Below are positions 2,237 to 12,120 of a stretch of DNA of 13,419 nt, in pieces. Location of the stretch: the NCBI GenBank assembly GCA_003157595.1, contig PMKB01000186.1:3552-16970 (forward strand), read 5' to 3'. This DNA comes from Solirubrobacterales bacterium. GTDB taxonomy: Bacteria > Actinomycetota > Thermoleophilia > Solirubrobacterales > Solirubrobacteraceae. Within the stretch, counting starts at the first letter, position 1, and every line of letters begins with the position of its first letter. A program made the translations under genes and the position numbers. The notes beneath the pieces were generated by a model that saw only the letters and a list, made by a program, of their open reading frames with translations, searched no databases and was not told the origin of the DNA.

Positions 2237-2865
2237 GAGTGCGCGACCGGCTCGTCGCCGCAGTGATCGTTGCGCTTGCGCTCGTGGGTCTGATGTGGCT
2301 GGCGCTCGTGTCACCGGAGCGCGCTCAGGTGACTTCGCTCTCCTCCCAGATCAGCACCGAGCACACCGCGCTCGCCGGCGCCGAGGCTCAGGTCGCCAGC
2401 GCGCGCCGCGCCGTGACCGGCTACGTCGGCCACCTGCACCAGATCGACGAGGTCATCAAGGCCGTTCCGCAAGCTCCCGCCGAGGCCGAGGTGGTCGCGA
2501 CGATCGACAAGCTGACCGGCACCAAGGTCGAGCCGGACTTTCGCGAGATCGACGTGGGCGCCGACACGGCGACCGGCGCGGGCCCGGTTGCGCTCGGGCT
2601 GACCTTCACCTACTGGGCCACATACCAGGGGCTGCAGACCTTCCTGGCGAGGCTCGACAGCCTGACGGCGACCGACGGCCTCAATGTGAACGCACCCGGC
2701 CGCCTGTTCACGGTCACGGCGGTTTCGCTCGAACCGCTCGGTAGCAGCCAAGCGCCGGCCGATGCGATGAGGGTGACGGTCACCGCTCAGGTGTACCTGC
2801 AGGGCGGCGTGAGCAGCGCGACCCCCAGCACGGGCGCAACCGGCTCAACGGGAGCAACCTCATGA
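2233..2865 (+). CDS. pilO: Type IV pilus inner-membrane protein PilO
   Basis: PilO is the partner of PilN in the membrane alignment complex. The chosen ATG at 2233 overlaps the pilN stop (ATGA), giving 210 residues; the reading frame is open further upstream, but that stretch codes for nothing PilO-like. A short positive N-terminus (MRVRDR) precedes a single membrane helix at about 7-26, a coiled segment (about 28-75), and a ferredoxin-like domain with the family pattern TYWATYQGLQTFLARLDSL. The last residues form a low-complexity tail, PSTGATGSTGATS, with a match in the tail of the next protein. The stop overlaps the next start by ATGA. The PilO call rests on position after pilN, topology and this domain pattern. 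Confidence 0.82.
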   Translation: MRVRDRLVAAVIVALALVGLMWLALVSPERAQVTSLSSQISTEHTALAGAEAQVASARRAVTGYVGHLHQIDEVIKAVPQAPAEAEVVATIDKLTGTKVEPDFREIDVGADTATGAGPVALGLTFTYWATYQGLQTFLARLDSLTATDGLNVNAPGRLFTVTAVSLEPLGSSQAPADAMRVTVTAQVYLQGGVSSATPSTGATGSTGATS

Positions 2866-3995
2866 ACTTCTTCAAGACACTCCAGGCCGACCTGCGCGAA
2901 CGGCAGATCTTCCCGGCGGTCGTGGTGCTGGCCGTGCTCGCGATCGGGATCCCGCTCGCTGCGCCGATCCTGTTCGGCAAGGTCACGACTCCGGCGGCCG
3001 GCTCGACCGTGGTCCCGCAGGTTCGGCCGCCCGCCGGCGTAGCGACTCCGCAGCAGGAGCTCGCGGACCTGGGCACAGCTCCGGCCACGCGGTCGATTCT
3101 GCGCCGCGGGACCGAGCCGGATCCGTTCCGCCAGTCGAGCTCGGCGTCCGGCAAGACCGCTGCGTCCTCAGGTGGCTCGAGCGCCGGCTCGACGTCCACC
3201 TCGACGACGCCCGCTAAGACGACGACCAAGACGACCACGACCAAGACGACCACGACCAAGACGACCACGCCCAAGACGACCACGCCCAGCACGACCGGAA
3301 GCACAGGATCGACGGGAAGCACCTCGACGCCCGCCCAGGGGAGTCCCGTGACCGGCCCGGCCTCGCTCAAGTCCGATCAGGCCTACACGGTGGACATTGA
3401 CACCAAGGACGCGCAGGGCGTGCACACGCTCAGCGACGTGGTTCGCCTCGCGCCCCTGCCCGCCGCGCAGTCGCCCGAGGTCATCTACCTCGGCGTCCTG
3501 AAGGGCGGCAAGAAGGCCGCGTTCCTCTTTACCAACACGATCGCTGTCTCGAGCAAGTCCGCCGCCGGGTTGACCTGCCTGCCGAGCAACAGCGCCTGCC
3601 AGATCATCGAGCTTTCGCCCGGCGATGGGATGAGCCTCTACCCGACCTCGAACTCAGCTCTGATCGCCACCTTCAGCTTCGAGCTCGTTTCGATCGGCGC
3701 AAAGAGCTACTCTTCGGCCGCCGCCGCCACACAGGCGCGCGACGCCGTCTCGACGGCGGGTCAGACGCTGCTGCCGCTGTCGAACTCGAGCGAGCTGTCA
3801 ACCCTCACCTTCAGCGACAAGCTCGGCGCCCTGGTCCATCATGCGGCCCCCTCCGGCGGCTCCGGCGGCGGATCGCGTGGTTCGTCGGGCCCGAGCGGCG
3901 CGACCGGAAGCACGGGATCCACAGGCGCCACGGGCGCCTCAGGCGGCGACAGCGTGTCAGTCGGCATCGCGTTCGCAGTCACCAAGGGCGACTAG
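2862..3995 (+). CDS. Single-pass pilus-locus protein in the PilP position, with Thr/Lys repeats
   Basis: This is a 377-residue protein of unproven function. A short basic N-terminus is followed by one membrane helix (about 17-38). A linker contains EPDPFR at 85-90, reminiscent of the DPF motif of PilP. Next comes a low-complexity stretch at 110-160 built on TTTTK units. A folded domain follows at about 167-325, with YLGVLKGGKKAAFLF near 209-223 and two cysteines, C239 and C246. The C-terminal tail is Gly/Ser/Thr-rich (GATGSTGSTGATG) and ends AFAVTKGD. It is the fourth gene of the coupled pilMNO set (ATGA overlap with pilO) and occupies the usual place of pilP. A PilP/GspC-like role in extending the alignment complex outward is therefore an inference from position and the weak DPF and YLGVL similarities. 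Actinobacteria lack a PilQ secretin partner, so its contact would differ from that of Gram-negative PilP. Confidence 0.6.
   Translation: MNFFKTLQADLRERQIFPAVVVLAVLAIGIPLAAPILFGKVTTPAAGSTVVPQVRPPAGVATPQQELADLGTAPATRSILRRGTEPDPFRQSSSASGKTAASSGGSSAGSTSTSTTPAKTTTKTTTTKTTTTKTTTPKTTTPSTTGSTGSTGSTSTPAQGSPVTGPASLKSDQAYTVDIDTKDAQGVHTLSDVVRLAPLPAAQSPEVIYLGVLKGGKKAAFLFTNTIAVSSKSAAGLTCLPSNSACQIIELSPGDGMSLYPTSNSALIATFSFELVSIGAKSYSSAAAATQARDAVSTAGQTLLPLSNSSELSTLTFSDKLGALVHHAAPSGGSGGGSRGSSGPSGATGSTGSTGATGASGGDSVSVGIAFAVTKGD
3216..3287 (+). repeat. 15-bp tandem repeat coding for Thr/Lys units
   Basis: One 12-bp unit (3216-3227) is followed by four 15-bp units at 3228, 3243, 3258 and 3273, each AAGACGACCACG(A/C)CC. 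They encode KTTTT or KTTTP. Copies 1-2 and copies 3-4 are identical within each pair, which suggests recent slippage or duplication. The peptide is a probable extended, possibly glycosylated or wall-spanning linker. Confidence 0.9.
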
Positions 3996-4144: not shown

Positions 4145-5305
4145 ATGGCGCTGCTGCGCATGATCACCGCCGGCGAGTCGCACGGCCCCGGTCTAACCTG
4201 CGTGCTCGAAGGGCTGCCCGCCGGCCTCGAGCTCGACCGTGAGGCGATCAACCGTGACATGGCGCGGCGGCAGCTGGGCCACGGTCGCGGCGGGCGGATG
4301 AAGATCGAGCAGGACACGGCGGAGCCGACGGCCGGCGTACGCCACGGCCGCACGCTGGGGTCGCCCGTCGCGCTGAGCGTCGTCAACCGCGACTACGCCA
4401 ACTGGGAGGAGCGGATGAACCCATGGCCGGTCGCGGCGGCGCTCGAGGAGGTGCACCTGCCCCGTCCCGGTCACGCGGACCTCGCCGGCCTGAAGAAGTA
4501 CGGCTTCAGCGACGTGCGCGACGTGCTCGAGCGAGCCTCGGCCCGCGAGACCGCCGCGCGGGTGGCCGGGGGCGCGCTCTGCAAGGCGTTCCTGCGGGCG
4601 CTGGGGGTGGAGGTCGTCTCCCACGTGCGCCAGATTGGCGCCGTGACCGCACCCGATTACCCCGAGCCGCTGGCGCTGGAGGCCTTCGCCGAGGTCGATT
4701 CCTCGCCGGTGCGCTGCCTGGATGCCGGCGCGTCGCGGGCGATGGTCGAGCACATCGATGCCCAGCGCAAGGCCAACGAGTCGCTGGGTGGTGTGTTTGA
4801 GGTGCGTGCCTACGGCCTCGTGACCGGTCTGGGCTCGCACGTCTCGTGGGAGGAGCGCCTCGACGGCCGCCTGGCGGGGGCGCTGTGCTCGATCCAGGCG
4901 GTCAAGGGCGTGAACCTGGGGGAGGGCTTCGAGCTCGCCGGCAAGCCTGGCTCGCAAGCCCACGATGAGATCTTCCACTCCGAGCAGCGCGGTTTCTACC
5001 GCGAGACCAACCACGCGGGAGGGCTCGAGGGCGGCATGACCAACGGCGAGACGCTGATCGCCGGCGCCGCGATGAAGCCGCTTCCGACCCTCACCAAACC
5101 GCTGCGCTCGGTCGACATCGCGACCCTGGAGCCGGCTCAGGCGCTGCGCGAGCGGACCGACTCCTGCACCGTGCCTGCCGCGGGAGTGGTGGGCGAGGCG
5201 ATGGTCGCGTTTGTGCTGGCCGACGCCTACAGGCGCAAGTTCGGCGGCGACCACATCGAGGACGTGCGCGGCGCCCTCGCCGCGTACCGAGCGCGGATCC
5301 GGTGA
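4145..5305 (+). CDS. aroC: Chorismate synthase AroC
   Basis: AroC converts 5-enolpyruvylshikimate-3-phosphate to chorismate, using reduced FMN; this is the last step of the shikimate pathway, in the cytoplasm. The 386-residue protein is of normal length. The first signature, GESHG, is at 10-14 with the conserved His13. The family pattern RRQLGHGRGGRM follows, then RPGHADLAGLKKYG, the SAR-x-T segment in ERASARETAARVAGGA, NHAGGLEGGMTNGE, and the C-terminal RTDSCTVPAAGVVGEAM. The ATG at 4145 gives the standard short lead before ITAGESHG and lies just behind a TAGACT -10 box, so translation is probably leaderless. It heads an operon: its stop overlaps the aroKB start (GTGA, 5302-5305). Confidence 0.97.
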   Translation: MALLRMITAGESHGPGLTCVLEGLPAGLELDREAINRDMARRQLGHGRGGRMKIEQDTAEPTAGVRHGRTLGSPVALSVVNRDYANWEERMNPWPVAAALEEVHLPRPGHADLAGLKKYGFSDVRDVLERASARETAARVAGGALCKAFLRALGVEVVSHVRQIGAVTAPDYPEPLALEAFAEVDSSPVRCLDAGASRAMVEHIDAQRKANESLGGVFEVRAYGLVTGLGSHVSWEERLDGRLAGALCSIQAVKGVNLGEGFELAGKPGSQAHDEIFHSEQRGFYRETNHAGGLEGGMTNGETLIAGAAMKPLPTLTKPLRSVDIATLEPAQALRERTDSCTVPAAGVVGEAMVAFVLADAYRRKFGGDHIEDVRGALAAYRARIR

Positions 5306-6837
5306 GCGCACACGGCGCGATCGTGCTTGTCGGGTTCATGGGGGCCGGCAAGACGACCGCCGCGCAGCGCGTCGGAGCCGAGCGGGGCCTTCGCGTCACC
5401 GACGTCGACAGGGTGATCGAGAGCCGCGGCGGCGCGACGATCGCCGAGATCTTCGCGCGCGACGGCGAACCGGCATTCCGGGCACTGGAGGAGGAGGTTG
5501 TCTGCGAGCTGCTGGCGGGCGCGCGCCAGGGCGAGATCGTGTCCCTGGGCGGAGGTGCCGTGACCTCCGAGCGCGTCCGCGCGGCGTTGGCCGAGCACCT
5601 CGTCGTCTGGCTCGACGTCGATCCGGCCCTCGCGTGGCGCCGGGCAGCTGACTCGGACCGGCCGCTGTCGCGTGACCGGGCGTCGTTTCATGCGCGCCAC
5701 GCGGAGCGGCTGCCGCTGTACGCACGGGTCGCCGACGCCGTGGCCCCGGCGCACGCGCGCGTCAGCTTCGGGCGTCTGCACGACGCGGTCGAGCAGCTGC
5801 GCCACGCGCCGGTCGCCACCCGGCTGCTGTGGGCCGTTAGCGGTTCGGCCGAGTACCCGGTCTGGATCGGGCGCGGCCTGCTCGGCTCTGGGCTGTGGCC
5901 GCTGCCGCGGAGCCCGGCGCGACGCTTCTGCGTGACCGACGAGCACGTCGCGGCGCTCTGGCTGGACGCCGCTGGCGAGCTTGACGAGGTCATCGTCATC
6001 GCCGCCGGGGAGTCGAGCAAGTCGATCGAGGAGGCCCAGCGGATCTGGCGCGAGCTGGCGCAGCGCGGCATGACGCGCGCCGACCACCTGGTCGCGCTCG
6101 GCGGCGGCGTCGTTGGCGACCTCGCCGGGTTCTGCGCGGCGACCTATCAGCGGGGCGTGCCGGTCGTTCAGGTGCCGACCACGCTGGTCGCCCAGGTCGA
6201 CTCCGCCTACGGCGGCAAGACGGGCGTCGATCTTCCGGAGGGCAAGAACTACGTCGGCGCCTATCACCATCCGGCCGGCGTCCTCGTCGACCCGGCGACC
6301 CTACAGACCCTCCCGGCGCAGGAGAGCAGCGCGGGGTACGCTGAGGTCATCAAGACCGCAATCATCGCCGGAGGCACACTTTGGGAGCGGATCGTCGCCG
6401 ATCAGCCGATCGATGACGGCGTGATCTTCGACTGCGCGTGGTGCAAGCTCTCGATCGTCGCCACCGATGAGCGTGACGAGGGACGCCGGCAGGTGCTCAA
6501 CCTCGGGCACACTGTCGGACACGCGCTCGAGACCGTGACCGAGTACCGGCGCTACAGCCACGGTGAGGCTGTGGGGCTGGGGCTGCTGGCCGCGCTATCG
6601 CTGTCGGGGCGCGGCGATCTGCGCGCGAGGGTCGCCGAGCTGCTGTCGGCCCACGGACTGCCGACCCGCGCCGACGGGGTCGATCCGGCGGCTGTTGCGG
6701 CGGCGACGCAGCGCGACAAGAAGCGGCTCGGCGGTGCCGTGCCGTTCGTGCTCGTGGACGCCCCCGGCGCCGTGCGACACGGCGGCGAGGTCGCGCCCCA
6801 CCAGCTCCGGTCCGCGCTCGCGGAGCTGTGCGCATGA
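5302..6837 (+). CDS. aroKB: Fused shikimate kinase / 3-dehydroquinate synthase AroKB
   Basis: This single 511-residue protein carries two shikimate enzymes. Residues 1 to about 170 are shikimate kinase: P-loop GFMGAGKTT (11-19), the shikimate-binding Asp segment TDVD (33-36), GGGAV near 83-87, and the lid segment SDRPLSR (118-124). From about 175 to the end is dehydroquinate synthase: the nucleotide-binding segment with AAGESSKS (234-241), GGGVVGDLAGF, VPTTLVAQVDSAYGGKTGVD (291-310), and predicted zinc ligands Glu348 (AEVIK), His403 (NLGHTVGH) and His420 (HGEAVGLG). All visible catalytic motifs are intact in both halves, so both activities are expected: DAHP to 3-dehydroquinate, and shikimate to shikimate-3-phosphate. 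Start and stop overlap aroC (GTGA) and aroQ (ATGA). The same fusion order is known in other bacteria, for example Thermotoga. Confidence 0.95.
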   Translation: MSAHGAIVLVGFMGAGKTTAAQRVGAERGLRVTDVDRVIESRGGATIAEIFARDGEPAFRALEEEVVCELLAGARQGEIVSLGGGAVTSERVRAALAEHLVVWLDVDPALAWRRAADSDRPLSRDRASFHARHAERLPLYARVADAVAPAHARVSFGRLHDAVEQLRHAPVATRLLWAVSGSAEYPVWIGRGLLGSGLWPLPRSPARRFCVTDEHVAALWLDAAGELDEVIVIAAGESSKSIEEAQRIWRELAQRGMTRADHLVALGGGVVGDLAGFCAATYQRGVPVVQVPTTLVAQVDSAYGGKTGVDLPEGKNYVGAYHHPAGVLVDPATLQTLPAQESSAGYAEVIKTAIIAGGTLWERIVADQPIDDGVIFDCAWCKLSIVATDERDEGRRQVLNLGHTVGHALETVTEYRRYSHGEAVGLGLLAALSLSGRGDLRARVAELLSAHGLPTRADGVDPAAVAAATQRDKKRLGGAVPFVLVDAPGAVRHGGEVAPHQLRSALAELCA

Positions 6838-7283: not shown

Positions 7284-8356
7284 GCGGCGGGCGGCCGGAG
7301 CGCCTCGGCCGGCTGATCGCCGATGCGCAGCTCGACGCGCTGATCGTCGAGGGCGCAGCCAACCTGCGCTACCTCGCTGGTTACACGGGCTCCAACGGGC
7401 TGGCGCTCGTGCGCGCGGACGGCGGCGGGCGCTTTTACACAGACTTCCGTTACGCCTCACAGGTCGCGGAGGAGGTGGACGACGCGTTCGAGTGCGAGAT
7501 CGTGACCGGCGAGCTCCTCGACGCGATGGCCGGCGCGCTGGGCGCCGGCCGTGTGGGGTTCGACGACACCAGAACGACCGTCAGTCGGCGAGCGAGGCTC
7601 GGCGAGCTGGCAGCTGCGAGCGTCGAGCTGGTCGCGGCCGTGGGCTTGGTCGAACGCATGCGGGCGGTCAAGGACGAGCGTGAGGTCGAGTTGATCGCCG
7701 CCGCGGCAGCGCTGATCGACGAGCTGTTCGGATGGCTGTTCGGCGGGCGCCTGAGCGGTCGTACCGAACGCGAGCTGGCGATCTCGCTGGAGCATGAGAT
7801 GCGGCTGCGGGGGGCCAGCGCGCCGAGCTTCGCATCGATCGTCGCCGGCGGCGCCCACGCCGCGCTGCCGCACGCCCAGCCGCGCGAAGCACCGATCGAG
7901 CCCGGCACGCTGGTGACCTTCGACATCGGCGCCCTGGTCGACGGATACTGCTCAGACTGCACGCGGACCGTCGCCGTCGGGGAGCCCTCCGGGCGGGCCC
8001 GCGAGGTCTACGAGGTCGTGCTGCGCGCCCAGCTCGCCGGACTGGAGGCGATCGCGCCAGGGGTCAGCGGACGCGACGCCGACGCGCAGGCACGCACCGT
8101 GATCGAGCAGGCAGGCTACGGCGAGTTCTTCGGACACGGACTCGGCCACGGTGTGGGACTGGAGATCCACGAGGCGCCACGGCTCTCGCGCATCAGCGGC
8201 GAGCAGGAGCTGGTTGCCGGCAACGTCGTCACGGTCGAGCCCGGGATCTACTTGCCGGGCGAGCTGGGTGTGAGGATCGAGGACCTGACGGTCGTTCGCG
8301 CCGACGGGCCGCAACTACTCAGCAGTTTCACGAAGGAACTGCTGGTACTCGATTGA
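7280..8356 (+). CDS. pepP: M24B-family Xaa-Pro peptidase
   Basis: This is a metal-dependent cytoplasmic peptidase acting on peptides with proline in the second position. The GTG at 7280 overlaps the aroQ stop and gives 358 residues; the frame is open upstream, but that part is out-of-frame aroQ. An N-terminal creatinase-like domain covers about 1-125, and the pita-bread catalytic domain about 130-358. The five metal ligands are visible: Asp215 (TFDIG), Asp226 (CSDCTRT), His290 (GHGLGHGVG), Glu320 (VEPGIY) and Glu334 (VRIEDL), with the conserved His193 and His198 ahead of them. The length suits the short aminopeptidase/dipeptidase (PepP/PepQ) type common beside aroQ and efp; sequence alone does not decide between those activities. 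Its last 29 bases overlap the convergent gene on the - strand. Confidence 0.9.
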   Translation: MSGGRPERLGRLIADAQLDALIVEGAANLRYLAGYTGSNGLALVRADGGGRFYTDFRYASQVAEEVDDAFECEIVTGELLDAMAGALGAGRVGFDDTRTTVSRRARLGELAAASVELVAAVGLVERMRAVKDEREVELIAAAAALIDELFGWLFGGRLSGRTERELAISLEHEMRLRGASAPSFASIVAGGAHAALPHAQPREAPIEPGTLVTFDIGALVDGYCSDCTRTVAVGEPSGRAREVYEVVLRAQLAGLEAIAPGVSGRDADAQARTVIEQAGYGEFFGHGLGHGVGLEIHEAPRLSRISGEQELVAGNVVTVEPGIYLPGELGVRIEDLTVVRADGPQLLSSFTKELLVLD

Positions 8357-9590
8357 GCAGCGTGGCAGTGCGCTCCGCTCTACGCAGCGGGCGCAGCCGG
8401 TAGACGGCCGCCGCCAGCGCCGCGAGCGTGAGCGTCGCCGGGAGCAGGAACGAGACCGCCTGGGCGTCGACTCCGATGTGGTTGGGGAGATACCAGAAGA
8501 TCAGCCACGTCGCGGCGGTCGCTGCGGCGGCGCCGATCGGCAGGCGCCGCGCGACCGTGGTCTCCCAGGCAAGCAGGGCGAAGATGAACGGGAGCGGGTA
8601 GTAGACGACGTCCCACGGGTCCAGCCAGCAGCGCAGCAGCATCAGCAGGGCCAGCAGCAGCAGCGCGTCGGCCGGGCGCGTGCGGCGCCGCACCGCCAGC
8701 AGCGTCAGTGGCAGGCCGAGCCAGACGATCAACATGTGCGCTCGGCCCCCGAGCCACGGCGGAGGAATGCGGAAACCGCGGGCGATCGAGCCGAGCATCG
8801 ACCCCACCCAGTGCCCGCGCGAGCCGAAGAACCAGAACACTTGCCACGGGTGAAAGATGGCGCCCGTGTCGGCCACGACCAGCCGGCCGGTGCCGGCGGT
8901 CACGCTCACCGACGACAGCAGCATCGGCGCGACCAAAGCAGCTGCGACGGCGCCCGCGACGATCAGGCTGCGCCAGCGGTGGGCCGGCAGCGCAACAAGC
9001 ACCGGGCCGATCGCCAGCAGCGCCCACTGCTTGTTGGCGATCGCCAGTCCGAGCGCCACGGCCGCCAGGTTCGCGCGGCCGCGCTGTGCCAGCAGCACCG
9101 CCGCCACGCACAGCGCCCCGCCCAGCAGCTCCTCCGGGTGCCCGGTCTGGAGCGCTCGGTAGCTGATCGGGTTGGCGGCGCACAGAAGCAGCGCCAGTGC
9201 GGCGGCGGCCAGGCGTCCGCCGGCCAGGCGCAGATTCACGGCCAGCCAGACGCCGAGTGCGCCGATCGCCAGCAGGCAGGGCAGAGCGCCGAGCCGATAG
9301 ATCAGCAGAGCGCTGCCGCCGGTCAGGCTGCCGGGGAGCGCGAACGGTGCCCGCAACAGCAGCGAGGCGCCGTAGGAAGGCGCGCCCTGGAGAAATTCGG
9401 TGATGTGGCCGTGGAGCAGGGCCGTCATGCTCGGCGCCGCCTCCGTGGCGTAATCGTTCAGCGCGACGTTCCACCACCACCCCCACAGCAGCGCGACCGT
9501 CGTTCCCACAGCAAGCGCGCTCCACAGCGCGATCTCACGACGCGAGACCGCTCTGGCCACGGGCAGCTGGTCGCGATGGCGCGCGGTCAC
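8328..9590 (-). CDS. Multi-pass membrane glycosyltransferase, GT87-like (downstream paralogue)
   Basis: A polytopic membrane protein of 420 residues starts at GTG 9590. It has roughly 10-12 hydrophobic helices. The first outer loop carries NDYATEAAP (Asp46, Glu50), where GT-C glycosyltransferases place their catalytic acidic residues. HPEELLG lies at 151-157, NKQWALLAIGP near 186-196, and DPWDVVYYPLPFIFALLAWE towards the C-terminus. The run of helix, Arg-Gly loop, Gly-rich helix, Lys and RWR resembles family GT87 (DUF2029), whose known members transfer mannose from polyprenyl-phosphate-mannose outside the membrane; the substrate here is unknown. It overlaps the upstream paralogue by GTGA (9587-9590), so the two are probably translated together. 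Its 3' end overlaps pepP tail to tail. The frame stays open further upstream, but that part is a shadow of the paralogue. Confidence 0.62.
   Translation of the reverse strand: MTARHRDQLPVARAVSRREIALWSALAVGTTVALLWGWWWNVALNDYATEAAPSMTALLHGHITEFLQGAPSYGASLLLRAPFALPGSLTGGSALLIYRLGALPCLLAIGALGVWLAVNLRLAGGRLAAAALALLLCAANPISYRALQTGHPEELLGGALCVAAVLLAQRGRANLAAVALGLAIANKQWALLAIGPVLVALPAHRWRSLIVAGAVAAALVAPMLLSSVSVTAGTGRLVVADTGAIFHPWQVFWFFGSRGHWVGSMLGSIARGFRIPPPWLGGRAHMLIVWLGLPLTLLAVRRRTRPADALLLLALLMLLRCWLDPWDVVYYPLPFIFALLAWETTVARRLPIGAAAATAATWLIFWYLPNHIGVDAQAVSFLLPATLTLAALAAAVYRLRPLRRAERTATLLNRVPAVPS
8971..9047. repeat. Near-identical 77-bp segment shared by the two paralogues (copy 1)
   Basis: These 77 bases differ from 10251-10327 at only three positions, while the flanking coding sequence is clearly diverged. 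It encodes the NKQW to RWR portion on the - strand. Such a sharply bounded identical patch points to gene conversion or to very strong constraint at the nucleotide level. Confidence 0.85.
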
Positions 9591-10837
9591 ACAGTCGATA
9601 TCGGCGCGGTGTTTGGAGCGCTTGAGCGCTGCCGAGGTGCCGTGCTCAGGACTCGGCGCGATCGCACGCCGGGGGCAAACAGCGCGATTGCCAGTGCGAG
9701 CAGCGTGGGCATCGCGGCGATCAGGAAGACGGCGGCCTGGGCGTCCGCCGAGATGTGCTCGGGAGCGACGATGAACACCAGCCAGACGACGAGGCTTGCG
9801 GCCAGTGCCAGGACCGGCGGGCGGCGGCGGTCGAGGCACTCCCAGGCGAGCAGGGCAAAGATGAACGGGAGCGGGTAGTACACCGTGTCCCAGGTGTCGA
9901 ACGCGAAGCGGATCGCCAGCAGGAAGGCGAGCAGGAGCATCGCGTCGGTGCGTCGGCGGAACACCGCGAGCAGGGTGACCGGCACCGCGAGCGCGACGAT
10001 CAGGGGGTGGTCGATGCTCTGGATCCAGGCGGGAGGCATTCGATAGCCGACCTTGACGACACCAAAGGTGTCGCGGACCGTCTGCCCGTGCGACCCGAGA
10101 AACCACCACAGTTGCCACGGCTGGAAGATCGTGCCGCCGCTCGAGACCGCCAGTGCTCCAGGCACGCCTGAGGACGTCTGGCCGACGTGGGCCGAGAGCC
10201 ACAGCGGAAAGTAGAAGCATGCGGCGAGCGCGCCCGCGATGGCGCTCGCGCGCCAGCGGTGGGCCGGCAGCGCAACAAGCACCGGGCCGATCGCCAGCAG
10301 TGCCCACTGCTTGTTGACAATCGCCAGGCCGAGCAGGATGCCCGACCAGCTCGCATGGCCACGCTGAGCGGCGAGCACCGCAGCCACGCACAGCACTGCG
10401 CCGAGCAGCTCCTCGGCGTGCCCGTCCTGCAGCGCGTAGAGCGTCACCGGGTTGACGACGCACAGCCCCAGGGCTGTGGCCCGGGCGAGCCGTCCGTGGC
10501 CGATCTCCCGCATCCGCGCGACTAGCCACACCGCCAGCAGCGCCGCGGCGGCCAGACACGGAATCGACACTGCCTGGTAGACGGCGAGGGCGCCGCCGCC
10601 CCACAGGCCGGGGATCAGCGCGAACGGGGCACGCAGCTCGAGCGAACCGCCGTAGCCGGGTGCCAGTTGCAGGAACTGCAACACATGGCCCGCGGTGAGC
10701 GCGTCGTAGGCCGGCGCGACCTCGGAGGCATAATCGTTCCAGCCGAACCCGTACAGGGTGAGGAACGACATCGCCCACACGCCCAATGCCGCGAATGCGA
10801 GCGCGGGTCCGTGGTCGCGCACGCGCAGCCTGGTCAC
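9587..10837 (-). CDS. Multi-pass membrane glycosyltransferase, GT87-like (upstream paralogue)
   Basis: This is a 416-residue polytopic membrane protein starting at GTG 10837 (MTRLRVRDHG). It is clearly a paralogue of the gene that follows it: both share the outer-loop motif NDYA-x-E-x-AP (Asp35 and Glu39 here), LRAPFAL, H-x-EELLG, NKQWALLAIGP, PAHRWR and YYPLPFIFALLAWE in the same order. The hydrophobic profile and acidic first loop fit a GT-C fold, with GT87 the closest family by pattern. A role in extracytoplasmic glycan or lipid-linked sugar assembly is an inference. It is the first gene of a two-gene - strand unit, divergent from the presenilin-like gene, with a 104-bp shared upstream region. 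No Shine-Dalgarno sequence is evident before the GTG. Confidence 0.62.
   Translation of the reverse strand: MTRLRVRDHGPALAFAALGVWAMSFLTLYGFGWNDYASEVAPAYDALTAGHVLQFLQLAPGYGGSLELRAPFALIPGLWGGGALAVYQAVSIPCLAAAALLAVWLVARMREIGHGRLARATALGLCVVNPVTLYALQDGHAEELLGAVLCVAAVLAAQRGHASWSGILLGLAIVNKQWALLAIGPVLVALPAHRWRASAIAGALAACFYFPLWLSAHVGQTSSGVPGALAVSSGGTIFQPWQLWWFLGSHGQTVRDTFGVVKVGYRMPPAWIQSIDHPLIVALAVPVTLLAVFRRRTDAMLLLAFLLAIRFAFDTWDTVYYPLPFIFALLAWECLDRRRPPVLALAASLVVWLVFIVAPEHISADAQAAVFLIAAMPTLLALAIALFAPGVRSRRVLSTAPRQRSSAPNTAPISTV
10251..10327. repeat. Near-identical 77-bp segment shared by the two paralogues (copy 2)
   Basis: This is the partner of the copy at 8971-9047, in direct orientation about 1.28 kb away. 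Three mismatches were counted by eye, one near the middle and two close together near the right end. Confidence 0.85.
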
Positions 10838-10903
10838 GCAGTCCTTATCGGTGTAATCGCGGGCTCGCTTGAGGTGCCTGGGCCCGCCGGCCGGGCGTTT
10901 GCG

Positions 10904-10925
10904 CGCCGGCCGGCGCCGGCCGGCG
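10904..10925. promoter_or_regulatory. Perfect 22-bp GC-only palindrome in the divergent intergenic region
   Basis: The 22 bases are their own reverse complement, centred on GGCGCC, and consist only of C and G. A smaller hairpin lies just before it (GCCCG at 10882-10886 pairing with CGGGC at 10892-10896). The palindrome ends 16 bases before the start of the presenilin-like gene. It lies between two divergent units, so it could be an operator for both or a hairpin in the leader of the + strand transcript. No T-run follows, so it does not look like a classical terminator. Confidence 0.45.
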
Positions 10926-10941
10926 TGCGGCGATCGCCGCG

Positions 10942-11739
10942 GTGCTCCATCCTGGGTTCGTGCCCTCGTTCGCAGTCTCGATCTGCGTGCTGTCGCTCGT
11001 TCAGGCCGGACTGGTCATGTGGCCGGCACCGCGCGAGATCCCGGCGCTCGCGCGCTTGCGCAGCGGCTGGTGGGCGGCGATCCCGGCCGCGTCGGTTGCC
11101 GGCTTCGTGTTCGCTGAGCGGGCGCTCGGAGGCCTGGCCGACGGCCTCACCTACCTCGCCCTGATCGCCGTGCCGCTTCTTGCGGCGCTGGGTCTCGGCT
11201 GGGCAATGCGGCGCAGCCGGCCGTGGTTTGCGCCCGTCGCCGCGCTGCTCTTCGCGCTGGCCTGGGCCGACCGCCAGGGCCTGGCAGGTGAGACTGCCGG
11301 CCTGGCGCTGGACGCGCTGTCCTGCGTTTCACTGGCGGTGTTGCTCGTGGCGGTCAGCCCCCGCGTTCTGGTCAAGCTCGGGATCGTCGCGATGGCGGTC
11401 GTGGACAGCTGGCTGGTGCTCAGCGACCTGCTGGCGGCCCCCAACGGAGCGCTCAATGCCGCGGCGCCCCTCGCGCACCTGCCGCAACTGCAGCGGGTTG
11501 TGTTCGGCTCGGCGGTGATGGGGTACGGCGACGTCTTCGTCGCCGCGTTGCTCGGGGCTCTGCTCGCGACCCAGCCCGGGCTCGCCCGCCGTGGTGCGGC
11601 GGTCGCGGCGCTCATCGGCCTCGCCTTCGACCTGCTGTTCCTGGCGGTCCGCGAGTTGCCTGCGACCGTGCCGATCGCGCTGACGCTGGCGATCCTCGAG
11701 CTGGGCGCGATCGTCGCACGGGGTCGCGCCCAGCGGTAG
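10942..11739 (+). CDS. Nine-helix presenilin/SPP-like intramembrane aspartyl protease candidate
   Basis: This is a 265-residue, almost entirely hydrophobic protein with nine predicted membrane segments (about 6-27, 43-64, 69-89, 95-109, 121-139, 142-164, 186-209, 216-237, 240-258). Features of clan AD (GxGD) proteases sit in the right helices: Asp155 in TM6 (MAVVDSWLVL), GYGD at 194-197 in TM7, and LPATVPIALTL at 239-249, matching presenilin LPALPISI with its PAL motif before the last helix. The GYGD-to-PA gap is 43 residues, close to the 48 of human presenilin 1. Such enzymes cut membrane helices inside the bilayer. The usual Tyr before the first Asp is Val, and PAL is PAT. The alternative is the A24 prepilin peptidase family, which also has GxGD, but the nine helices and PAL-like motif favour A22. 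GTG 10942 is the longest start; GTG 10960 is also possible. Confidence 0.6.
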   Translation: MLHPGFVPSFAVSICVLSLVQAGLVMWPAPREIPALARLRSGWWAAIPAASVAGFVFAERALGGLADGLTYLALIAVPLLAALGLGWAMRRSRPWFAPVAALLFALAWADRQGLAGETAGLALDALSCVSLAVLLVAVSPRVLVKLGIVAMAVVDSWLVLSDLLAAPNGALNAAAPLAHLPQLQRVVFGSAVMGYGDVFVAALLGALLATQPGLARRGAAVAALIGLAFDLLFLAVRELPATVPIALTLAILELGAIVARGRAQR

Positions 11740-11841: not shown

Positions 11842-12120
11842 CTAGTGAGGGAAGTACTCGTGCACCGAGAACTCGTGCACCTCCGGCTGGCTGGTGATAC
11901 CGGTTGCAGCCGCCGCGGGTCCGATGCGCTCTGCCGCGAAGCGGTCGAAGTGTGCGCGCGACTCCCAGAAGTCGAGGACCCCCCAGCCGCCATCCACGGG
12001 ACCGGACGCGTGAAAGATGAGTCCGTCCGGGGGATTGCCGCCCGGGTCGATTGCCGCGTTGAGCCGGTCGACCTGCTCGGCCGTCCACCCGTCGCCCTTC
12101 AAGCGAATTCCTACAGCCAT
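11842..12120 (-). CDS. Small ABM-like dimeric alpha/beta-barrel protein
   Basis: The protein is 92 residues with no membrane segment or signal peptide. The pattern GLIFHASGPVDGGWGVLDFW at 33-52, followed by ES-RAHFDRFAAERIGPA and a C-terminal strand ending EFSVHEYF, is typical of small stand-alone proteins of the antibiotic-biosynthesis-monooxygenase-like (dimeric alpha/beta barrel) superfamily. Members include quinol and haem mono-oxygenases and many of unknown role. No cofactor residue can be named here, so the activity is open. The ATG is well supported by a GAGGAGA ribosome binding site at 12125-12131, the clearest Shine-Dalgarno in this window. It is transcribed divergently from efp across a 93-bp gap and stands alone. 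Confidence 0.7.
   Translation of the reverse strand: MAVGIRLKGDGWTAEQVDRLNAAIDPGGNPPDGLIFHASGPVDGGWGVLDFWESRAHFDRFAAERIGPAAAATGITSQPEVHEFSVHEYFPH

Follow-up and report, generated by a model that had tools for sequence, protein, structure and literature searches.

A Candidate Bacterial Branch of the Presenilin/Signal Peptide Peptidase Fold in the Thermoleophilia

Genes of the Locus

The window, by which we mean the whole stretch of 13,419 nucleotides analysed here, is from a Solirubrobacterales bacterium. Type IV pilus genes lie at its left end (96-2865): pilM, pilN and a pilO/T2SSM-like gene that scores under its Pfam cut-off. A match to the A24 prepilin peptidase, at G000:C33:3317-3580, overlaps the left edge. 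There are two tandem repeats in this region, one of 24 bp x 3.1 within pilM (305-379) and one of 15 bp x 5.3, Thr/Lys-rich, at 3218-3296 within the gene at 2862-3995. At 5302-6837, shikimate kinase and 3-dehydroquinate synthase are fused in one frame (aroK-aroB), and the fusion sits between the genes for chorismate synthase and type II dehydroquinase.

The gene of interest occupies 10942-11739 on the forward strand. It is an open reading frame of 265 codons with a GTG start. Its G+C content by codon position (0.78/0.52/0.89) resembles that of the neighboring genes, a gene-like codon composition. Upstream on the opposite strand are two tandem genes for GT87-type membrane glycosyltransferases (8328-10837), of which the right-hand one, 9587-10837, falls below the Pfam cut-off. 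Between this divergent pair and the gene of interest, dense G+C-rich inverted repeats are found at 10876-10947. Downstream there is a 92-residue frame without a Pfam match on the reverse strand (11842-12120), followed by efp and nusB.

Part of this arrangement recurs in the closest named relatives (L071-L073). In all three, two genes of one cluster (c52), the counterparts of the GT87-type genes of the window, precede the family gene on the opposite strand. Clusters c53 and c54 lie downstream in L071 and L072 and not in L073; we take these, by place and length, to be efp and nusB. A wider survey covered 96 distinct loci of L031-L150, with the gene called in 98, L001-L030 being left out. No conserved neighbor hinting at a substrate was found among the 96 loci. 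The neighbors that recur, namely PEPCK, heme A synthase and MgtE- and NRAMP-like transporters (all named by eye), are bound to single lineages. Because the neighbors change from lineage to lineage, we rejected an assignment of substrate by operon. A link to type IV pili was likewise not seen at the other loci.

Predicted Structure

The AF2 model of the window protein has a mean pLDDT of 93.0 and a pTM of 0.90. It was made from alignment A3, consisting of the window protein and 71 relatives (72 sequences). For A3, 88 relatives were found and 80 kept; from these we dropped eight loci whose matches were incomplete and then one of the remaining 72, L124, which carries the same strain label as L123. 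Nine membrane helices can be read off the model, at residues 10-26, 42-62, 65-88, 96-109, 114-137, 141-160, 195-208, 212-234 and 242-264, in agreement with the nine hydrophobic segments that a first-pass annotation had counted. That annotation proposed a presenilin-like intramembrane aspartyl protease from three landmarks, and the model puts each of them where it should be. First, Asp155 (codon 11404-11406), the first putative catalytic aspartate, is within helix 6 (11362-11421). Second, the GYGD motif (residues 194-197; 11521-11532), ending in the second putative catalytic aspartate, Asp197, runs into the start of helix 7. Third, PATVP (residues 240-244; 11659-11673) leads into helix 9, where presenilins and SPPs have PAL. 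The segment linking helices 6 and 7 is modelled as a short helix (residues 165-173; 11434-11460) and then a beta hairpin (residues 185-188 and 191-194; 11494-11523) leading into GYGD.

The predicted structure is of the nine-helix presenilin/signal peptide peptidase (SPP) fold. In a Foldseek search of the PDB, of which the best 50 of 204 matches were considered, ranks 1 to 5 are human SPPL2a (two entries) and the presenilin-1 of gamma-secretase (three entries), with probabilities of 0.99-1.00 and query TM scores of 0.57-0.60; rank 6 has a probability of 0.06. The best match is SPPL2a, 9k93. Further down, gamma-secretase chain 5fn5_B is at rank 16 (probability 0.60) and the archaeal presenilin homolog PSH, 4y6k_B, is at rank 25 (probability 0.57, TM 0.50). 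Other folds reach at most 0.12 in these best 50 matches. Among viral predicted structures, the first match is a giant-virus signal peptide peptidase at a probability of 1.00, and the next is at 0.20.

A second AF2 model was made for a family member from Patulibacter medicamentivorans, which shares 41 percent identity with the window protein (pLDDT 91.0). Its PDB ranks 1, 2, 3 and 5 are SPPL2a, gamma-secretase, SPPL2a and gamma-secretase, with probabilities of 0.97-1.00. Rank 4 is an unrelated structure (0.16), and among the best 50 of 92 matches the highest value for any other fold is 0.44. The two models are not independent, since alignment A4 comes from the loci that also supplied A3, and the two share sequences. 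The Foldseek E-values are modest for both models, the best being 0.005 and none passing 0.001. With SPPL2a first and presenilin-1 close behind for both, the models support the earlier suggestion of a divergent bacterial branch.

Conserved Residues

Some genomes, including that of the window, are counted more than once in the merged set of 138 family sequences. The final counts therefore use the 112 rows that are distinct over residues 10-257. The three residues whose conservation the first-pass annotation had singled out are kept almost throughout: Asp155 in 112 rows, Asp197 in 111 and Pro240 in 110. Thr242 is also present in all 112, and Pro244, Pro181, Gln21, Pro78 and Gly205 are each in 111. 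Ala241 is in 108, and the two glycines of GxGD, Gly194 and Gly196, are in 106 and 101. Both aspartates are retained in 111 rows, and both together with Pro240 and Thr242 in 109, among sequences that share as little as 24 percent identity with the copy in the window's genome. The aspartates and PAT..P are among the lowest-entropy columns of the whole protein, as judged over the 138 rows. The sole member seen with Glu for the second aspartate (GWGE) is at L040, 4449-5261 on the reverse strand.

The first-pass annotation also pointed out two departures from the presenilin pattern, and both are properties of the family. The residue preceding the first aspartate is Ala, Val, Ile or Leu in 105 rows and Gly, Ser or Thr in 7; it is Tyr in none. 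PMC13252537 writes this motif both as a hydrophobic residue followed by D and as YD. At the PAL position, PA is kept and the next residue is always Thr, so that a literal PAL is absent.

The order and spacing of the landmarks was tested with the pattern [hydrophobic or Gly]D-x(36-75)-GxGD-x(36-60)-PA[LT]. It is found in 83 of 98 called family members. Outside the family, none of the 98 multi-TM genes compared has it, while 2 of the 1057 non-family genes of the examined loci do, as do 36 of 20,000 shuffled versions of the window protein. This bears out the order noted at the start. In the window protein, the distance between the aspartates is 42 residues and that from the second aspartate to the proline is 43. 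For human SPP these distances are 46 and 52, and for presenilin-1 they are 128 and 48.

Family and Distribution

The window protein belongs to a real family. Of 399 genomes sampled from its class, 118 have a relative, and these are spread over 29 of 128 genera. With the distant member L037 as the query, 116 of the 399 genomes are found, and these include the window's own genome at E=7e-20. The named relatives are Solirubrobacterales, Conexibacter, Solirubrobacter and Patulibacter, besides bins labelled Actinomycetota or Actinomycetes; judging by these names, the class is Thermoleophilia. Three relatives with odd labels, L130 (Chlamydiae), L141 (Marmoricola) and L138 ("bacterium"), may be mislabelled.

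For profile searches, 70 of the listed class matches were aligned (A1), comprising the 30 best loci and 40 chosen for divergence. A smaller alignment of 24 rows (A2) takes 23 of the A1 loci and substitutes the window protein for L001. Run against 396 genomes of the phylum, the A1 profile gave eight strong matches, all within the class, and three weak ones with E from 3e-4 to 9e-4. In the one weak match examined, L162, the frames resemble, by eye, an MgtC-type protein and a kinase. Phyla beyond Actinomycetota were searched by narrow peptide patterns, and the phage and plasmid records searched had no family match.

A tree of the 112 distinct rows has several branches and includes paralogs. One paralogous branch consists of L033, L034, L064, L066 and L067; four of these five have, at most two genes downstream, a small gene of NAD(P)-binding type (cluster c33, named by eye). 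In the freely accessible literature that we searched, no Thermoleophilia protein is described as being of presenilin/SPP type. In 2021, Raut et al. reportedly described archaeal roots for the presenilin/SPP enzymes.

Comparison by Sequence

Sequence alone does not prove the relation to presenilin and SPP; the fold and the residue conservation carry it. Neither Pfam nor NCBIfam gave the window protein a match at E<=10. Among the 70 A1 members, no profile of A24 or of any other aspartyl protease was matched in Pfam or NCBIfam, and the weak matches are scattered, each confined to one or two members. The best of these are IcmT/TraK (0.0022) and a PTS transporter model (0.005) in NCBIfam and AKAP28 (0.015) in Pfam. 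The first-pass reading came through this comparison without a competing family, although the matches to PF01080, PF04258 and PF06550 that it had sought did not appear in any of the 70 members at E<=1. For comparison, human SPP matches PF06550 at 8e-5 and PF01080 at 0.016. A search with PF06550 found nothing in the window's genome; in the 396 genomes of the phylum no match passed the cut-off, and one weak match was seen at 0.004.

With phmmer against the PDB sequences, the sole match at E<=10 is the C-terminal fragment of presenilin-1, 2kr6, at a nonsignificant E of 0.31. Here GYGD aligns with GLGD and PA-T-VP with PA-LP, the Thr being treated as an insertion. This is the same stretch in which the flanks of the motifs had been said to match presenilin; the resemblance was recovered, but it is not significant by itself. 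As a yardstick, human SPP finds the 2kr6 chain at only E=0.18. The 70-row profile matched no A22 chain in the PDB and lost the 2kr6 match, leaving the transporter PnuC at E=6.8 as its only match.

Comparing the 138-row family with hhalign gave nonsignificant probabilities of 0.4 percent with presenilin-1, 1.3 percent with SPP and 2.6 percent with SPP plus SPPL2a. In all three A22 comparisons, the best segment is on GxGD. Sixteen families from neighboring genes, membrane and soluble, served as controls. The family has the best E-value against SPP and against SPP plus SPPL2a, with one control having a higher raw score against SPP, while 4 of the 16 controls outscore it against presenilin-1. Two accepted relatives, presenilin-1 and SPP, reach 33.5 percent in the same test. 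With one to two sequences on the A22 side, the hhalign result is not significant, and we count it as neutral.

Membrane Orientation

The positive-inside rule is used to orient membrane proteins. With loop boundaries taken from the AF2 model, the side with loops 1-2, 3-4, 5-6 and 7-8 and the C-terminus has an average of 11.5 Lys plus Arg per protein, and the other side has 2.4. The bias is to the same side in all 112 distinct rows (and in all 138 of the merged set). By this rule, the charge indirectly indicates an N-terminus outside and a C-terminus inside. That is the orientation of A22B, and the N-in/C-out orientation of presenilin (A22A) is not indicated. The presenilin likeness originally proposed stands for the fold and the order of the motifs, but the orientation by charge is that of SPP. 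In PMC7768045, SPP is described as N-out/C-in and presenilin as the reverse, cutting type II and type I substrates, respectively.

Relationship to Known Proteases

The closest resemblance is to SPP and the SPP-like proteins (A22B, PF04258). Shared features are the nine helices, an aspartate in helix 6, GxGD in helix 7, a PA motif leading into helix 9, a short helix followed by strands ahead of GxGD, and, by charge, the N-out/C-in orientation. The window family differs in lacking a profile match, in having PAT(V)P with an invariant Thr for PAL, in having mostly Ala, Val, Ile or Leu for the Tyr before the first aspartate, and in being bacterial and smaller (265 aa). Presenilin (A22A, PF01080), the catalytic part of gamma-secretase, shares the fold and motif order. 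It differs in its opposite orientation and in a large loop between helices 6 and 7, missing from the window protein, as seen in the Asp-to-Asp distances given above. Archaeal PSH (4HYG/4Y6K; PF06550 SPP) is, like the window protein, a single-chain prokaryotic protein of the same fold, but it is the weaker structural match and the PF06550 profile is not matched. The catalytic aspartates of PSH are roughly 7 A apart, according to PMC9282858.

Substrate-bound human SPP offers a further comparison. A preprint (PMC13252537) describes the two aspartates as sandwiching an unwound stretch of the signal peptide, the AMPH1 helix after helix 6 as becoming ordered, and two strands of SPP as pairing with the substrate. 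In the window protein, the short helix 165-173 is at the place of AMPH1, and the hairpin 185-194 may correspond to the substrate-pairing strands; both likenesses go by order along the chain and not by superposition.

Because a literal PAL and all three Pfam profiles fail, and because sequence similarity alone is not significant, we do not file the window protein under A22A or A22B. In fold, key residues and orientation it resembles SPP, whose way of working it would share, and the most fitting description is that of a candidate sister branch within the presenilin/SPP fold.

Proposed Function and Alternatives

Very probably, the family represents a divergent and so far unannotated branch of the presenilin/SPP fold in bacteria, whose members would cut N-in/C-out helices in the manner of SPP. 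We consider it likely that the window protein is a single-chain intramembrane aspartyl protease of that fold, one of an unannotated Thermoleophilia family. The predicted fold, the conserved residues and the orientation by charge are computational results; the substrate is inferred from the orientation, and the protease activity by analogy with known enzymes. By the same analogy, Asp155 in helix 6 and Asp197 in helix 7 would jointly activate a water molecule, with acid-base chemistry as in those enzymes. PATVP ahead of helix 9 would shape the active site, and the short helix 165-173 and the hairpin after it may take up the unwound substrate.

With its N-terminus outside and its C-terminus inside, like SPP, the protein should cut N-in/C-out transmembrane segments. 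This choice of substrate class, taken from the orientation, is a tentative one, to which we give a little less than an even chance. Targets might include signal-anchored proteins and leftover signal peptides, the latter being the simplest N-in/C-out substrate, and the physiological role would then be membrane clean-up, which we suggest only weakly. Of 389 genomes of the class, 27 gave a match to S49 (SppA); the window's genome, which is 73 percent complete, gave none. We considered whether the family and SppA exclude each other, but there is no anti-correlation: the family is in 7 of the 27 S49 genomes versus 118 of 399 overall, an overlap counted by hand across draws of 389 and 399 genomes. 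The M50 site-2 protease is present in the window's genome, and this protease also clears signal peptides in E. coli (PMC8144685). The missing anti-correlation and the patchy distribution call for caution about clean-up. A reading that we keep, as less likely than not, is that a separate bacterial branch of the fold, marked by PAT(V)P and the SPP orientation, clears leftover signal peptides in mostly SppA-less Actinomycetota.

Within the preferred reading of an active protease, the enzyme could instead have a dedicated regulatory substrate, as in regulated intramembrane proteolysis. Its patchy occurrence in the class is unlike that of a universal housekeeping enzyme; however, no conserved neighbor presents itself as the cognate substrate, and we rate this variant as rather unlikely.

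Outside the preferred reading, the protein might have the presenilin/SPP fold and no longer be a protease, or never have been one, serving for example as a membrane chaperone or in lipid handling. The alteration of PAL to PAT(V)P, the missing Tyr before the first aspartate and the one member with Glu at position 197 would all fit. Retention of both aspartates in all but one row at identities down to 24 percent is hard to explain without catalysis, and we think a noncatalytic protein improbable. Less probable still is a chance ordering of the three motifs in some unrelated membrane protein, such as a multi-helix transporter. That would agree with the nonsignificant scores from sequence, with PnuC as the only PDB match of the family profile and with the weak matches of single members to transporter models, but not with motifs conserved over 112 rows, nor with two models whose top PDB matches are presenilin/SPP proteases, other folds staying at or below 0.12 and 0.44 among the matches listed. 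Least credible is a divergent A24 (prepilin/preflagellin; PF01478) peptidase serving the pilus genes at the window's left end: A24 peptidases also carry GxGD, but the absence of an A24 profile match in 70 members and of an A24-titled entry in the best 50 structural matches of either model, the separate canonical A24 match at the window's left edge and the lack, by eye, of a pilus gene in the 30 commonest neighbor clusters of 96 loci largely refute it.

Presenilin and SPP have been studied mainly in eukaryotes and archaea. If the family does clear leftover signal peptides, bacteria too would have the SPP mode of clean-up. A compact single-chain bacterial branch, present in named strains of Solirubrobacter, Conexibacter and Patulibacter, would be new material for structural work on proteases of the gamma-secretase type. 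It would show which parts of PAL are needed and would bear on the origin of the fold. For the class itself, in which so few genomes have S49 (SppA), it would supply a candidate enzyme for clearing signal peptides.
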